NCBI RefSeq assembly: GCF_900100655.1
Contig: NZ_FNCE01000001.1
Span: 124,001-188,000, forward strand
Length of the DNA stretch: 64,000 nucleotides
Direction: 5' to 3'
DNA from: Limimonas halophila
GTDB lineage: Bacteria; Pseudomonadota; Alphaproteobacteria; Kiloniellales; Rhodovibrionaceae
The notes below the pieces were generated by a model. That model was not told the origin of the DNA. It did no database searches and was given only the letters and a program-made list of their open reading frames with translations. Shown here in pieces: positions 1,434-6,066 of the stretch (position 1 is its first letter; the number at the start of each line of letters is the position of its first letter). Made by a program: the position numbers and the translations under genes.

Positions 1434-1550
1434 CCCTCTCCTTCAGGAGAGAGGGCGACCGCGGACCTCGGCGTGCCGCCACAAAACCCTCTCCCACTGG
1501 GAGAGGGTCGCCAAGCTGCCCCGGCAGCTTGGCGGGGTGAGGCAGTGCCG
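1434..1550. repeat. Palindromic intergenic repeat module, copy 1
   Basis: Three palindromes lie in a row: an imperfect one at 1434-1455 (CCCTCTC/GAGAGAGGG), one at 1487-1507 (CCCTCTCCCA around the centre), and a perfect pair of 11-bp arms, GCCAAGCTGCC and GGCAGCTTGGC, at 1510-1533. The module ends in GGGGTGAGGC. The same order recurs at 1695-1840. No coding gene was recognised between the ABC gene and 1859. Confidence 0.85.
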
Positions 1551-1694
1551 GGTCGGAGTGCGGTATCGTGTGGTGAGCGTTGCGTGGTGTGGGCGGCAGC
1601 ACGACTGCCGTCGGCGGAACCGATGCCGGCGCGGTGATACATGATCCGCGCGCTGCGTCGATGTCTGTCGTGGTCGCACCGCCACTGCCTCACC

Positions 1695-1840
1695 CCGGCG
1701 GGCCTGACGGCCCGCCACCCCTCTCCTGAAGGAGAGGGGTCGACCGCAGGCATCGGCGTGCCGACACAAAACCCTCTCCCACCGGGAGAGGGTCGCCAAG
1801 CTGCCCCGGCAGCTTGGCGGGGTGAGGCTGTGACAGGTCG
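1695..1840. repeat. Palindromic intergenic repeat module, copy 2
   Basis: A near copy of the 1434-1550 module. It has a perfect palindrome at 1717-1740 (ACCCCTCTCC / GGAGAGGGGT around TGAA), a second at 1771-1793, and the same 11-bp arms GCCAAGCTGCC / GGCAGCTTGGC at 1795-1818. A further GC palindrome (GGCGGGCC/GGCCCGCC) stands at about 1697-1716. It ends 19 bp before the 3' end of the DUF559 gene. Confidence 0.85.
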
Positions 1841-1858
1841 GGATGCGACGGAGGGCAA

Positions 1859-2200
1859 TCAGGATATCGCCGGAAGGTGGCGTGCGATTACTGCAAGCAC
1901 GCCATCCAGATTCTTCAGCACATCGGTGTTCCAAAAGCGAAGAACGGTGTAGCCGTGGCCGTTCAAGCACCGGGTGCGACGGTCGTCGCGGGCGGTGTCT
2001 TCCGCGTGTTGGCCGCCATCCACTTCCACGATGATGCCCGCTTCACGGCAACAGAAATCCGCGACGTAGGGCCCTATGGGCTCTTGGCGCCGAAACTTGG
2101 CGCAGTTGAGGCGGCGATTGCGCAGGTGGCGCCAAAGCACGTGTTCGGCGTCGGTGCCCTGCCGGCGCAGAGTGCGCGCCCGGCGTGTACGGTGCGCCAT
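1859..2200 (-). CDS. DUF559 domain protein (Vsr-like small endonuclease fold)
   Basis: A 113-residue protein made almost entirely of one DUF559 domain: LRRQGTDAEHVLWRHLRNRR, then FRRQEPIGPYVADF, then the acidic core VEVDGGQHAEDTARDDRR and the ending GYTVLRFWNTDVLKN. This domain is related to very-short-patch-repair endonucleases, and the E/D/QH residues are the presumed metal site. Activity and biological role are unknown. ATG at 2200 is chosen because it begins at the domain; an upstream TTG at 2236 would add 12 residues. The gene sits alone inside an array of palindromic repeats, with modules on both sides. It appears intact. Confidence 0.8.
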   Translation of the reverse strand: MAHRTRRARTLRRQGTDAEHVLWRHLRNRRLNCAKFRRQEPIGPYVADFCCREAGIIVEVDGGQHAEDTARDDRRTRCLNGHGYTVLRFWNTDVLKNLDGVLAVIARHLPAIS

Positions 2201-2267
2201 GTGGGCAGGTGGAGCAGATTTCGGTTGTGACGGCAAGGCGGCACGGCTCGTCGCGCTGGCGCCGCCA

Positions 2268-2322
2268 CCGCCTCACCCCGGCGGCCCCGCGGCTCACTGC
2301 CCCTCTCCTGAAGGAGAGGGGC
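2268..2322. repeat. Palindromic intergenic repeat, partial copy 3
   Basis: Contains CCTCACCCCGGCGG followed by a perfect palindrome at 2299-2322 (GCCCCTCTCC / GGAGAGGGGC around TGAA). This is the same palindrome type as 1717-1740. It lies just upstream of the DUF559 start and downstream of the entericidin gene. Confidence 0.8.
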
Positions 2323-2482: not shown

Positions 2483-2685
2483 CGCGGTTCCCTCCCGGTC
2501 ATCATGACGAACACACCCGTCGGCACCTTCAGGTGCCGCCTTGACGCCAAATAACCTGGAATGCGTGACCGGCCAAGGGGCGTGCCTGTGATCCCCGCAT
2601 GTCAGCGGGGGCGCATCGGCGGGTGGATCGACGCCGCCGCACCGGCGTCGTAGGCTTGGCGCACGCATCGGGACACGAGGGGCGC

Positions 2686-3126
2686 ATGACGCCGCGGATC
2701 ACCCACATCGCGCTGCACGTTGCCGATCTGGAGGCCTGCGCGGCCTTCTACCGCGAGGTCTGCGGCCTGCGCGAGGTGCACGCGCGCGACAGCCAGGACC
2801 TGCCCGGGCGCGTCGTCTGGCTGGCCGCGCCGGGGCAGGAGCGCAGCTTCGTCATCGTCCTGCTGCCGGGCGGGCCGGGGCATCACGGCGGCGAGCGCGA
2901 TTTCTCCCACATCGGCTTCGCCGTGGAGACGCGCGATGCGGTCGATGCCATGGCCGAGGAAGGCCGCCGCCGCGGCTGCCTGGCGCTGGCGCCCAAGCAG
3001 GACGAATACCCGGCGGGCTACTTCTGTGTCCTCCTCGACCCCGACGGCACGGCCGTCGAGTTCTCGCACGGCCAGCCGCTCGGCCCGGGGGCCGAGGCGG
3101 CCGACCGACAGGTGCTAGGCGAATGA
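2686..3126 (+). CDS. VOC superfamily (glyoxalase/bleomycin-resistance fold) protein
   Basis: A 146-residue single VOC domain: THIALHVADLEACAAFY opens the first beta-alpha-beta half, FSHIGFAV the second, and DPDGTAVEFSH ends it with the usual metal-binding glutamate. VOC enzymes include glyoxalase I and methylmalonyl-CoA epimerase. The stop overlaps the start of meaB by 4 bases, so the two are probably co-translated and a link to the methylmalonyl-CoA pathway is possible. The sequence is not close enough to known epimerases for me to name it so. ATG 2686 is chosen because homology begins there. Confidence 0.75.
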   Translation: MTPRITHIALHVADLEACAAFYREVCGLREVHARDSQDLPGRVVWLAAPGQERSFVIVLLPGGPGHHGGERDFSHIGFAVETRDAVDAMAEEGRRRGCLALAPKQDEYPAGYFCVLLDPDGTAVEFSHGQPLGPGAEAADRQVLGE

Positions 3127-4103
3127 CGACGGATGTGGACCAGCTCGCCGCGCGCATCCGGGGCGGCGACCGCCGCGCGTTGGCGCGCGCCATCACGCTC
3201 GTGGAATCCACGCGCGCCGACCACCGCGCCACGGCGACGGAGCTGCTCGACCGCGTGGTGGACGCGACGGGGACGGCCGTGCGGCTCGGCATCTCGGGCG
3301 TGCCGGGGGTGGGCAAGTCCACCTTCATCGAGGCGTTCGGCCTGAACCTCACGCGCCGGGGCAAGCGCGTGGCCGTGCTGGCGGTCGACCCGACCTCCGC
3401 GCGCACGGGCGGCGCCATCCTGGGCGACAAGACCCGCATGCAGGAACTGGCGCGCACGCCCGAGGCCTTCATCCGGCCCTCGCCGACGGGCGGGACGCTC
3501 GGCGGCGTGGCGCGGCGCACGCGCGAGGCCATGCTGCTGTGCGAGGCGGCGGGCTTCGACGTCGTGATCGTGGAGACGGTCGGCGTGGGGCAGGCGGAGA
3601 TCACCGTCTCCGAGATGGTCGACCTCTTCCTGCTGCTGCTCCTGCCGGGCGCGGGCGACGACCTCCAGGGCATCAAGAAGGGCATCTCCGAGATCGCCGA
3701 CGTCCTCGTGGTCAACAAGGCGGACAGCGGGCAGGAATCCGCCGCCGAGGCCGCGGCGGCCGCCTACACGGACGCGCTGCGCATCGTCGGCGCCGATCCC
3801 ACGGTGCTCACCTGCTCGGCGCTGGAGGGGCGCGGCATCGACGCCGTCTGGGCGGCCGTGCGGGATCGCCGCGCCGAGATGCAGGCGAGCGGGACGCTGG
3901 ACCGCCGCCGCTCGGAGCAGGCCGACCGCTGGATGTGGGCGGCGGTGGAGGACACGCTGCTGCACGACTTCCGCACCGACCCGGCCGTGGCCGAGCGCCT
4001 GCCCGCCGTGGAGGCCGCCGTGCGCGAGGGCCGCATGGCCCCCGGCGCCGCCGCCCGCGAGCTGCTGGCCGCCTTTCGCAACCCCGCTCGCAAGAGCGCG
4101 TGA
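3123..4103 (+). CDS. meaB: Methylmalonyl-CoA mutase-associated GTPase MeaB (ArgK family)
   Basis: A 326-residue G3E-family GTPase that gates cobalamin loading and protects methylmalonyl-CoA mutase. P-loop GVPGVGKST at about residues 59-67, DPTSARTGGAILGDKTRM switch region, a conserved VETVGVGQ and the guanine-specificity motif NKAD are all visible. Length matches the family. It overlaps the VOC gene by 4 bases (ATGA). No mutase subunit gene lies in the window. Confidence 0.93.
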   Translation: MTTDVDQLAARIRGGDRRALARAITLVESTRADHRATATELLDRVVDATGTAVRLGISGVPGVGKSTFIEAFGLNLTRRGKRVAVLAVDPTSARTGGAILGDKTRMQELARTPEAFIRPSPTGGTLGGVARRTREAMLLCEAAGFDVVIVETVGVGQAEITVSEMVDLFLLLLLPGAGDDLQGIKKGISEIADVLVVNKADSGQESAAEAAAAAYTDALRIVGADPTVLTCSALEGRGIDAVWAAVRDRRAEMQASGTLDRRRSEQADRWMWAAVEDTLLHDFRTDPAVAERLPAVEAAVREGRMAPGAAARELLAAFRNPARKSA

Positions 4104-4194: not shown

Positions 4195-5079
4195 GTGAGC
4201 CGCATCCCGCTGCCCGACGTAACCGTCGGCATCAAGGCTTTCATGCGCCAGGAATCCCTGCGCAACACCCTGGAGTCCCTGACGCCCTTCGATGTCCACG
4301 CGGTCGTGGTCGCCGACGACAGCGGCATCGATAGCGACCGGCGGGCGCTCTACGACGAGATGGCGGAAAAGCTGCCGCTCACCGTGATCGAGCCGCCGCG
4401 GGACACGGGTGTGTCGGTGGGGCGCAACCGCATCTTCGACGCCTGCGACAGCGCCTACCTGCTGCTGCTGGACGACGACCACGTGGTGCCGGAGAACATC
4501 GGCGAGCTGCGCGAAATCCTGGAAGCGCACCCGGAACTGGGCGGCGTGTCGGGTATCTGGTCGGAGTGGGGCACCTATCGCTCGGGGGCGTGCAACCTCT
4601 ACCGGCTCGGCCCCTATCTCTACCGCGACGTCGGCCCCGAGCCGGAGACGGCTGCGACGCCCCGCGGCGGCACGCTCCACTACTACGATTCCATCCCGCT
4701 CTCGACGCTCTTCCGCGCCGAGGCGCTCAAGGACGTGCGCTGGGACGAGAGCTTCAAGATCGGCAAGGCGCACCTGGACTTCTTCCTCCAGCACAAGGTG
4801 CTGGGCAAGTGGCGCTTCGCCATCACGCCCTCGGTCGTGATCGGTCACTATCCCGCAACGGGGACGACCGTGCCCAAGGACCGCCGGCCCGACACCGGCT
4901 ACATCCGCATGCGCCGGGGCTCGGACCGGCTGCGGCGCTCGCAGGACCACCTGAACCGGAAGTGGGGTGTGCGCGGCGCCTTCACGGGCTGCACCCACAT
5001 CAGCACGGACAACCGCGGTTGGAAGCTGTTCAAGCATTACGCGCTGCGGCCCATCGTGCGCCTGAAGCCCGGTCTGTGA
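4195..5079 (+). CDS. Family 2 glycosyltransferase (paralogue 1)
   Basis: A 294-residue GT-A fold enzyme expected to move a sugar from a nucleotide donor in the cytosol. It opens with VTVGIKAFMRQESLRNTLESL, has VVVADDSGIDSDR, then the metal-binding DDDH at about residues 93-96 in YLLLLDDDHVVPENI. No transmembrane segment is evident. Start is GTG 4195 with GAGG upstream. The next gene at 5143 is a clear paralogue sharing FLQHK.LG.WRFA and VADDSGI, so this is a tandem duplication. Donor and acceptor cannot be told; the neighbouring flippase and sulfotransferases suggest a surface glycan. Confidence 0.82.
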   Translation: MSRIPLPDVTVGIKAFMRQESLRNTLESLTPFDVHAVVVADDSGIDSDRRALYDEMAEKLPLTVIEPPRDTGVSVGRNRIFDACDSAYLLLLDDDHVVPENIGELREILEAHPELGGVSGIWSEWGTYRSGACNLYRLGPYLYRDVGPEPETAATPRGGTLHYYDSIPLSTLFRAEALKDVRWDESFKIGKAHLDFFLQHKVLGKWRFAITPSVVIGHYPATGTTVPKDRRPDTGYIRMRRGSDRLRRSQDHLNRKWGVRGAFTGCTHISTDNRGWKLFKHYALRPIVRLKPGL

Positions 5080-5142
5080 CGGGGAAGGCGGCACGACGCG
5101 CCGAAGGGGGAGCGCGGACATGCCGGGCGAGAGGATGACGCG

Positions 5143-6066
5143 ATGACCGAGCCGGCACCGATGCGCGACGTCACGGCCGGCGTGAAGGCCTTCCTGCGCC
5201 AGGCCGAGCTGCGGGACACGCTCACCGCGCTGACCGGGCACGGCTTGCACGAGGTGATCGTCGCCGACGACAGCGGCATCGGGCCGGAGCGCGAGGCGCT
5301 CTATGCCGAGCTGCGGGAAGTTCTGCCGCTGCGCGTGATCGAACTACCCTACGACAGCGGCGCCTCCGCCGGGCGCAACGCGGTCGCGCGGGCCTGCATC
5401 ACGCCCTACCTGCTGATGCTGGACGACGACCTGATCGTCCCCGACAACCTCGCGGCCATGCGCCGGGCAGTGGACGCCAGCCGCGAGCTGGGCGGGGTGT
5501 CGTGCATCTGGCGCGAGCACGGGCGGCTGTCGTCCTGCGCCGCCAACCTCTACCGCGTGGGCCGGCGGCTGTATAAGGACATTGGCCGCGGTCCGGCGTG
5601 TGTGCCGCGCCCGGACGGGAAGCGCCTGCCCGTCTACGACATCGTGGAGCAGAGCGTCCTGTTCCGCACGGAGACCTTCGACGACGTGCTGTGGGACGAG
5701 CACTTCACCATCATGCGCGAGCATGTGGACTTCTTTTTGCAGCACAAGGCGCTCGGGCGCTGGCGTTTCGCCGTGGTGCCCGAAGTGGTGATGCGCCACG
5801 AGAAAACGCCCAAGACCGCCGGCAGCGACTACGCCGCGCTGCGCTACGGCCGCGAGCGCAAGCGGGCCGCCGACGACCACTTCCGCGCCAAGTGGGACCT
5901 CCACGGCGTCGTGGAGGGGCGCTGGCAGCACGCCCACGAGCGCCCCGTGAAGCGGGCGCTCAACCACGCGGCGCTGCTGGCGCACCTGCGCCTGGGGCGC
6001 ACGCAGCCGATCGGGATGCCGGCCGGCAGCCTGGACGGGGCTCAGGTGGATGCGGTGGGCGGATAG
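5143..6066 (+). CDS. Family 2 glycosyltransferase (paralogue 2)
   Basis: A 307-residue GT-A enzyme paralogous to the product of 4195-5079. Shared landmarks are VTAGVKAFLRQAELRDTL, VIVADDSGIGPER, the DXD site LMLDDDLIVPDN, and EHVDFFLQHKALGRWRFA. The 3' end overlaps by 25 bases the 3' end of the sulfotransferase gene on the other strand, a convergent arrangement. The divergence between the two copies suggests separate acceptor specificities. This is inferred, not shown. Confidence 0.82.
   Translation: MTEPAPMRDVTAGVKAFLRQAELRDTLTALTGHGLHEVIVADDSGIGPEREALYAELREVLPLRVIELPYDSGASAGRNAVARACITPYLLMLDDDLIVPDNLAAMRRAVDASRELGGVSCIWREHGRLSSCAANLYRVGRRLYKDIGRGPACVPRPDGKRLPVYDIVEQSVLFRTETFDDVLWDEHFTIMREHVDFFLQHKALGRWRFAVVPEVVMRHEKTPKTAGSDYAALRYGRERKRAADDHFRAKWDLHGVVEGRWQHAHERPVKRALNHAALLAHLRLGRTQPIGMPAGSLDGAQVDAVGG

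Follow-up and report, generated by a model that had tools for sequence, protein, structure and literature searches.

BoxC repeats, also called potential-intrastrand-triplex (PIT) repeats, have been known in E. coli since the 1990s, and DUF559 is a widespread protein family of unknown function. The published boxC/PIT/TMECO repeat is a hairpin, CCCTCTCCC-loop-GGGAGAGGG, with a GGGTGAGGG tail; it occurs singly or in inverted pairs, and is listed for E. coli as CCCTCTCCCTGTGGGAGAGGGCCGGGGTGAGGGC (PMC4666352, Table 1). An intrastrand triplex was reported in vitro for TMECO of E. coli, and boxC loci are unstable, with small deletions between the hairpins (PMC4666352). A 2005 study treated DUF559 (YcjD in E. 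coli) as a relative of Vsr and a predicted nuclease of the PD-(D/E)XK type (PMC1189080). Vsr and related folds are repair nickases. In the literature that we could search, which was limited to open-licence papers and left out most preprints, we found no enzyme for boxC/PIT and nothing that ties DUF559, ycjD, COG2852 or PF04480 to repeats. In the same literature, we found no biochemical evidence of any DUF559 protein cutting or binding these repeats.

Here we describe a DUF559 gene of Limimonas halophila that lies among such repeats. The window, by which we mean the whole stretch of DNA that was analysed, is 64,000 nt (G000:C1:124001-188000) of the 3.04-Mb genome. The gene and its repeats (Table 1) sit between an ABC transporter (33-1409) and a VOC-family gene that is followed by MeaB (2599-4103). 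A 45-residue entericidin-like lipoprotein (PF08085, E = 1e-6; 2345-2482 on the minus strand) directly adjoins the third repeat. Further along, at 4195-6066, neighbouring reading frames of 294 and 307 residues are similar to each other (DDSGI and LLLDDD-type motifs) and look like paralogous glycosyltransferases.

Table 1. Features of the DUF559 site (positions are those of the window).
Feature	Position	Strand	Details
Hairpin CCCTCTCCTTCAGGAGAGAGGG	1434-1455		No recognisable tail; likely the remnant of a further element
'B' end of the neighbouring gene-less element	1486-1542	+	Hairpin 1486-1508, accessory hairpin 1509-1534, tail GGGGTGAGG 1534-1542
Filler of the gene-less element	1543-1687		145 bp; similar on either side to the inner ends of the DUF559 unit (z = 3.0 and 4.5)
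'A' end of the gene-less element	1688-1740	-	Tail CCTCACCCC 1688-1696, accessory hairpin about 1697-1716, hairpin 1717-1740
Linker between the tandem elements (A hairpin, linker, B hairpin)	1741-1770		Repeated upstream within the 136-nt duplication
'B' end facing the gene	1771-1827	+	Y/R hairpin 1771-1793 (ACCCTCTCCCACCGGGAGAGGGT), accessory hairpin 1794-1819, mirror tail GGGGTGAGG 1819-1827
DUF559 (PF04480) nuclease gene	1859-2236	-	125 aa from TTG 2236 or 113 aa from ATG 2200; PD-(D/E)XK / Vsr-like fold
'A' end, opposite side of the gene	2271-2322	-	Tail CCTCACCCC 2271-2279, degenerate accessory stem, hairpin 2299-2322; tail toward the gene

The first-pass annotation of this site had described two near-identical multi-hairpin modules and a third, partial copy around an intact DUF559 gene, and all of these are where it placed them. 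Positions 1427-1562 share 88% identity with 1712-1847 across 136 nt, only part of the third copy is present (2250-2322), and the reading frame matches the Pfam profile PF04480 (E = 4e-41), not PF03852 (Vsr). The 11-bp arms that the annotation stressed (GCCAAGCTGCC/GGCAGCTTGGC) are also present, embedded in perfect 12-bp arms (1509-1520/1523-1534 and 1794-1805/1808-1819), but they form only a small accessory hairpin. The core of the repeat is instead the hairpin CCCTCTCCC/GGGAGAGGG with the tail GGGGTGAGG, and the core unit runs from the hairpin ACCCTCTCCCACCGGGAGAGGGT through a second hairpin, CGCCAAGCTGCCCCGGCAGCTTGGCG, which holds the 11-bp arms, to GGGGTGAGG. With the tails considered, the site reads as two tandem elements with inward tails: a gene-less one (1486-1740) and one that holds the gene (1771-2322). 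The pattern CCCTCTCCN0-12GGAGAGGG occurs four times in the 64-kb window, each time at the DUF559 site, and never in 100 dinucleotide shuffles. Folding of the DNA gave z scores of -5.1 to -5.9 for three repeat units and -2.5 for the third partial copy. An Rfam search of positions 1300-2500 gave no match.

Judged by its sequence, the repeat of the window is the boxC/PIT repeat of E. coli. It has the three parts that mark this family: a pyrimidine (Y) arm, a complementary purine (R) arm, and a further run of purines, the third tract, which repeats the purine arm in mirror image. Compared to the published repeat of E. coli, we find in addition a nuclease partner, many variants of the arm that obey the mirror rule, and an accessory hairpin between arm and tail. 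None of this identity, nor the mirror tail, nor the membership of E. coli ycjD (see below), was in the first-pass annotation.

The mirror rule holds across unrelated arms. The arms vary widely (GGGAGAGGG, GGGGGAGGG, GGGGAGAAGG, GGGGGAAGG, AAAGAGGGG, and GGGGGAGA), and the tail mirrors the arm, often with T for A, as in GGATGAGGGG for GGGGAGAAGG or GGGGAGATTT for AAAGAGGGG. If the tail served to form an alternative hairpin, it would be a second copy of the arm, whereas an R*R.Y triplex needs a mirror. Among 68 strongly asymmetric locus-arm pairs, the mirror was the better fit in 56, the copy in just 2, and the two were equal in 6, so we reject the copy reading; a second comparison pointed the same way. 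Perfect tail fits in the same pairs numbered 53 for the mirror and 5 for the copy, and the mean match of the tail was 0.97 for the mirror, 0.83 for the copy, and 0.81 for shuffled arms. Arm and tail are mostly separated by 3-5 nt. Longer spacers often form a hairpin of their own (61% of those of 12-40 nt, versus 12% if shuffled). The intrastrand triplex itself is supported here by the mirror covariation alone, and it is not excluded that a protein reads the mirror symmetry without any triplex. Of the arms that obey the mirror rule, the most divergent belongs to a DUF559 locus, L038 of genome G068, where there are about eight repeats, all A-rich (AAAGAGGGG arm, GGGGAGATTT tail).

The repeats are physically linked to DUF559 genes in many other genomes. 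We scored 58 DUF559 loci from the samples of the order and the phylum, another 80 loci that were found independently (by a peptide pattern in named genomes), and a joint set of 136 loci for a relaxed test. The strict test asked for a perfect pyrimidine/purine hairpin with arms of at least 8 nt, while the relaxed test allowed one mismatch. Strict hairpins lie within 250 bp of the gene at 54/58 loci, with a density of 4.54 per kb near the gene versus 0.13 per kb beyond 500 bp. In the second sample, they lie within 300 bp at 70/80 loci, and the density falls from 7.45 per kb in the first 100 bp to 0.03-0.10 per kb past 300 bp. Nearly all of the loci that fail the strict test (13/14) have a hairpin with a single mismatch. 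The relaxed test finds a hairpin within 300 bp at 135 of the 136 loci, and on both sides at 103. As controls, we used Vsr and Y1_Tnp genes: the strict test gave 0/30 for both, and the relaxed test gave 1/30 for Vsr and 8/30 for Y1_Tnp. Hairpins at the ends of REP and IS200 elements near Y1_Tnp genes are a known pattern. Other hairpins do show up at 20/30 of the Y1_Tnp genes, so the proximity test recovers this pattern. Because the DUF559 gene is almost always flanked by the repeat, the two look like a previously unrecognised mobile pair.

L. halophila itself has 11 CCCTCTCC palindromes, 17 CCTCCCC palindromes, and three DUF559 genes. An exact search for CCCTCTCC had given the result that only one of the three genes has repeats, which we rejected when a general Y/R search found a different arm at the other two; each gene has at least one palindrome within 300 bp. 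The first-pass annotation had stated that DUF559 genes in other proteobacteria often sit within comparable palindromic arrays. Both of the comparisons that it proposed, within the genome and across genomes, bear this out: over the 136 loci, hairpins are enriched about 30- to 80-fold near DUF559, and the strict controls are near zero.

The tails usually point toward the gene (100 versus 33, with 133 scored), but this is not universal, since 33/133 are opposed and the tails point outward in Deinococcus. For instance, Deinococcus psychrotolerans has a unit within its paa operon, in the paaD-paaZ interval, that has 55-nt terminal inverted repeats with outward tails. The range of the repeat extends to Deinococcota and Nitrospirota. 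DUF559 loci of cyanobacteria show related hairpins of the Y/R type, as do those on Deinococcus plasmids.

The flanked proteins look like intact nucleases. The structure model of the DUF559 protein from the window has a mean pLDDT of 81.5. Searching with this model, Foldseek ranks the gonococcal DUF559 protein (3hrl) first and the homing endonuclease I-Bth0305I (3r3p) second, with Vsr (1cw0) lower. D60, E71, D73, H77, and N103 are invariant in 22 DUF559 proteins, so the flanked copies look catalytically intact, insofar as conserved residues can tell. Both the fold and the conserved acidic/His core fit the Vsr/EDxHD branch of the PD-(D/E)XK nucleases. Endonuclease activity is inferred; we found no assay of it in the literature. 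Although DUF559 shares its fold with Vsr and with I-Bth0305I, which is a Vsr-like homing endonuclease of the EDxHD type, the DUF559 gene lies outside introns and is flanked by its own repeats, and Vsr genes lack such repeats. The L. halophila genome has no match to PF03852.

The gene and both of its repeats have been duplicated as one unit within genomes. Two genomes, G014 and G029, each contain two copies of the unit at different sites, with 90% identity over 523 bp and 84% identity over 469 bp, respectively. In both cases, the similarity begins and ends at or just outside the outer hairpins, and the flanks are unrelated. This meets one classical criterion for insertion sequences and transposons, namely a discrete unit at unrelated sites. 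Given identities of 84-90%, the copying is not recent. There are also gene-less derivatives. In L. halophila, the sequence immediately inside the tails of gene-less pairs (L004 and L007) and of single-sided copies is similar to that of the DUF559 unit (z = 2.6-4.8 on the left and 1.8-5.0 on the right). Gene-less pairs of about 100-250 bp with the inner ends of the gene-bearing unit are reminiscent of MITEs and IS elements, as are the terminal inverted repeats of the Deinococcus unit. Unlike those elements, the DUF559 unit has no transposase of a known class, and we saw no target duplication. In a genome from another family (G003), the order of ABC transporter, VOC, and MeaB is kept, and the site has neither DUF559 nor hairpins.

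In E. coli MG1655, one of the 23 copies of boxC adjoins ycjD, which is annotated as a DUF559 protein. This copy (NC_000913.3 1351203-1351239) is just past the 3' end of the gene, and ycjD has boxC on the 3' side only. A degenerate half of the boxC repeat (2398-2421 of locus L037) holds the last codons and the stop codon of ycjD, so the repeat encodes the C-terminus of the protein (SPSP). The ycjD locus is present in 3333/5426 genomes. E. coli lineages without ycjD carry eefRABCD at the same place (PMC12817139); at the fabI-sapF site (L127 and L037), we saw either ycjD with boxC or this efflux operon.

The boxC pairs of E. coli vary between strains. Whole pairs are missing from some strains at hrpB-mrcB, fepB-entC, and lldD-trmL, and one repeat of the alx-sstT pair is missing from some. 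Three of the E. coli pairs have one spacer sequence in common, so types A and B of the literature seem to be opposite ends of a single element. At the four empty sites, no target-site duplication or fixed target is apparent, and the flanks differ by a few bases. These small changes leave it undecided, at some of the sites, whether there was an insertion or a deletion. In E. coli 07_3337 (L214) and NCTC122 (L221), a boxC pair has lost the DNA that separated its hairpins, which is consistent with deletion between paired hairpins. The alx-sstT allele of ATCC 8739 (L216) is about 217 bp longer than that of K-12 and has no boxC; it contains a different, unidentified insert.

The closest parallel in architecture is the REP/RAYT system (REPtrons and BIMEs), in which a nuclease gene is also bracketed by inverted palindromic repeats and there are many dispersed, intergenic gene-less pairs. 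This parallel had been drawn in the first-pass annotation, whose guess was largely right: the repeats bracket the gene, gene-less pairs are scattered, the boundaries are discrete, and strains differ by presence and absence. But the enzyme of RAYT is a Y1 HUH transposase and DUF559 is of the PD-(D/E)XK type. Nor do the repeats correspond. REP sequences have a GTAG/CGTC tetranucleotide at the foot of the hairpin, while the conserved foot of the L. halophila copies is CCTCACCCC/GGGGTGAGG, which is the mirror tail. Also, the L. halophila genome has no match to Y1_Tnp (PF01797). By both enzyme and repeat tag, the DUF559 system is not RAYT, but by analogy it appears to work like RAYT.

We therefore propose, with a probability of roughly 0.6, that the site consists of a two-component mobile element and its gene-less derivative: a REP/RAYT-like system with an unrelated nuclease of the Vsr/homing-endonuclease fold and with ends that could form triplexes. 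The autonomous unit would be a single-domain DUF559 nuclease (Vsr/I-Bth0305I fold) between two inverted repeats of the boxC/PIT type, and one strand of each repeat could fold up, either as a hairpin or as an R*R.Y intrastrand triplex. The repeats may serve as the recognition ends of the DUF559 protein, and they might fold on single strands at replication forks or be extruded from supercoiled DNA. The nuclease would then nick or cut beside the folded repeat, and repair would copy the unit, or a gene-less pair in trans, into a new site without target duplication. The physical linkage, the co-occurrence of gene and repeat, the mirror rule, the boundaries at the outer repeats, the duplicates, the gene-less derivatives, and the strain differences in E. 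coli are observed. That DUF559 cuts the folded repeat, and so copies the unit or the gene-less pairs, is inferred from the architecture, the fold, and the parallel with REP/RAYT. Points against the proposal are the lack of biochemical evidence, of an apparent target duplication, of recent copying, and of a uniform tail direction, the exceptions to the co-occurrence (see below), and the presence of boxC on only one side of ycjD.

Alternatively, DUF559 might be a resident, structure-specific repair nuclease that resolves obstructive hairpin or triplex repeats. The repeats would build up only in its presence, the copies beside the gene would be regulatory or tolerated, and another agent would move the repeats. 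The repair nickases among Vsr and related folds fit this, and so do the instability of boxC loci and the small deletions between hairpins (PMC4666352), as well as the losses that we saw in strains 07_3337 and NCTC122. In addition, the DUF559 protein VsrA of Caulobacter is a cause of DNA damage when a methyltransferase is mutated (PMC12907096). But a repair nuclease leaves unexplained why the gene and both repeats are duplicated together between unrelated flanks, why gene-less pairs have the inner ends of the unit, and why repeats bracket the gene on both sides with their tails mostly toward it. We consider this explanation unlikely.

The distribution of gene and repeat bears on a second alternative, in which DUF559 is a free-standing homing endonuclease that targets pre-existing boxC-type repeats, its gene having landed between such repeats or within them. 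The repeats themselves would spread unaided or through another enzyme. Among structures whose role is known, the nearest, I-Bth0305I (3r3p), is a homing endonuclease, and there are far more repeats than genes. But the repeats are largely limited to genomes that have the gene, which a mere target would not need. In the order (58 genomes), 23/24 of the genomes with full-length DUF559 and 7/34 of the others have the CCCTCTCC palindrome (p = 5e-9). Across 299 genomes of Pseudomonadota, it is found in 74/86 with DUF559 versus 43/213 without (odds ratio 24, p = 9e-27), at least five copies are found in 56/86 versus 13/213, and DUF559-bearing genomes hold 3351 of the 3819 copies. Stratified by family, DUF559 still predicts the repeat (odds ratio 19, p = 1e-9). 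Vsr (p = 0.36) and Y1_Tnp (p = 0.83) have no association with the CCCTCTCC repeat in these 299 genomes after stratification; together with the proximity controls, this led us to reject both as its partner. The correspondence has exceptions. The CCCTCTCC form is missing from 12 of the 86 genomes with DUF559, although arms of other types do occur, and some repeat-rich genomes (152, 82, and 64 copies) have no DUF559, which is compatible with loss of the gene. The class of the arm also tracks the DUF559 tree, with 31 changes versus 50 ± 2 if shuffled. This is as expected of cognate pairs, though physical linkage alone predicts the same. Both this tracking and the G003 site, which lacks the repeats as well as the gene, speak against a homing endonuclease, and we doubt that this explanation is correct.

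It is very improbable that the repeats are ordinary transcription terminators or mRNA 3'-end structures behind small genes, with no partnership, as in the reading of 100 CCCTCTCCC palindromes of Enterobacter sp. 638 as putative terminators (PMC2869309), because they lie on the 5' as well as the 3' side, have mirror tails, predict gene presence across genomes, and are absent in the strict test from Vsr and Y1 genes of the same genome sample.

If the site is a mobile element and its derivative, then it may belong to a new and widespread class of mobile elements in which DUF559 recognises and mobilises triplex-forming ends, boxC/PIT repeats are the non-autonomous offspring, and YcjD and boxC of E. 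coli are members. We view the case for such a class as evenly balanced. Its novelty would rest on the unrelated class of enzyme and on the triplex-capable ends; it would be weaker if recognition of the triplex proves irrelevant, and our check of the literature covered open-licence papers only. A mobile system that reads its ends as a DNA triplex would be, to our knowledge, without precedent. The link between boxC/PIT and DUF559 offers the boxC repeat, long an orphan, a partner, and it gives both of them a testable role. It predicts a class of mobile elements that runs alongside REP/RAYT and relies on an enzyme unrelated to RAYT. From comparison across bacteria, the mirror covariation is also evidence of selection for a DNA triplex or, at the least, for the mirror symmetry that it requires.
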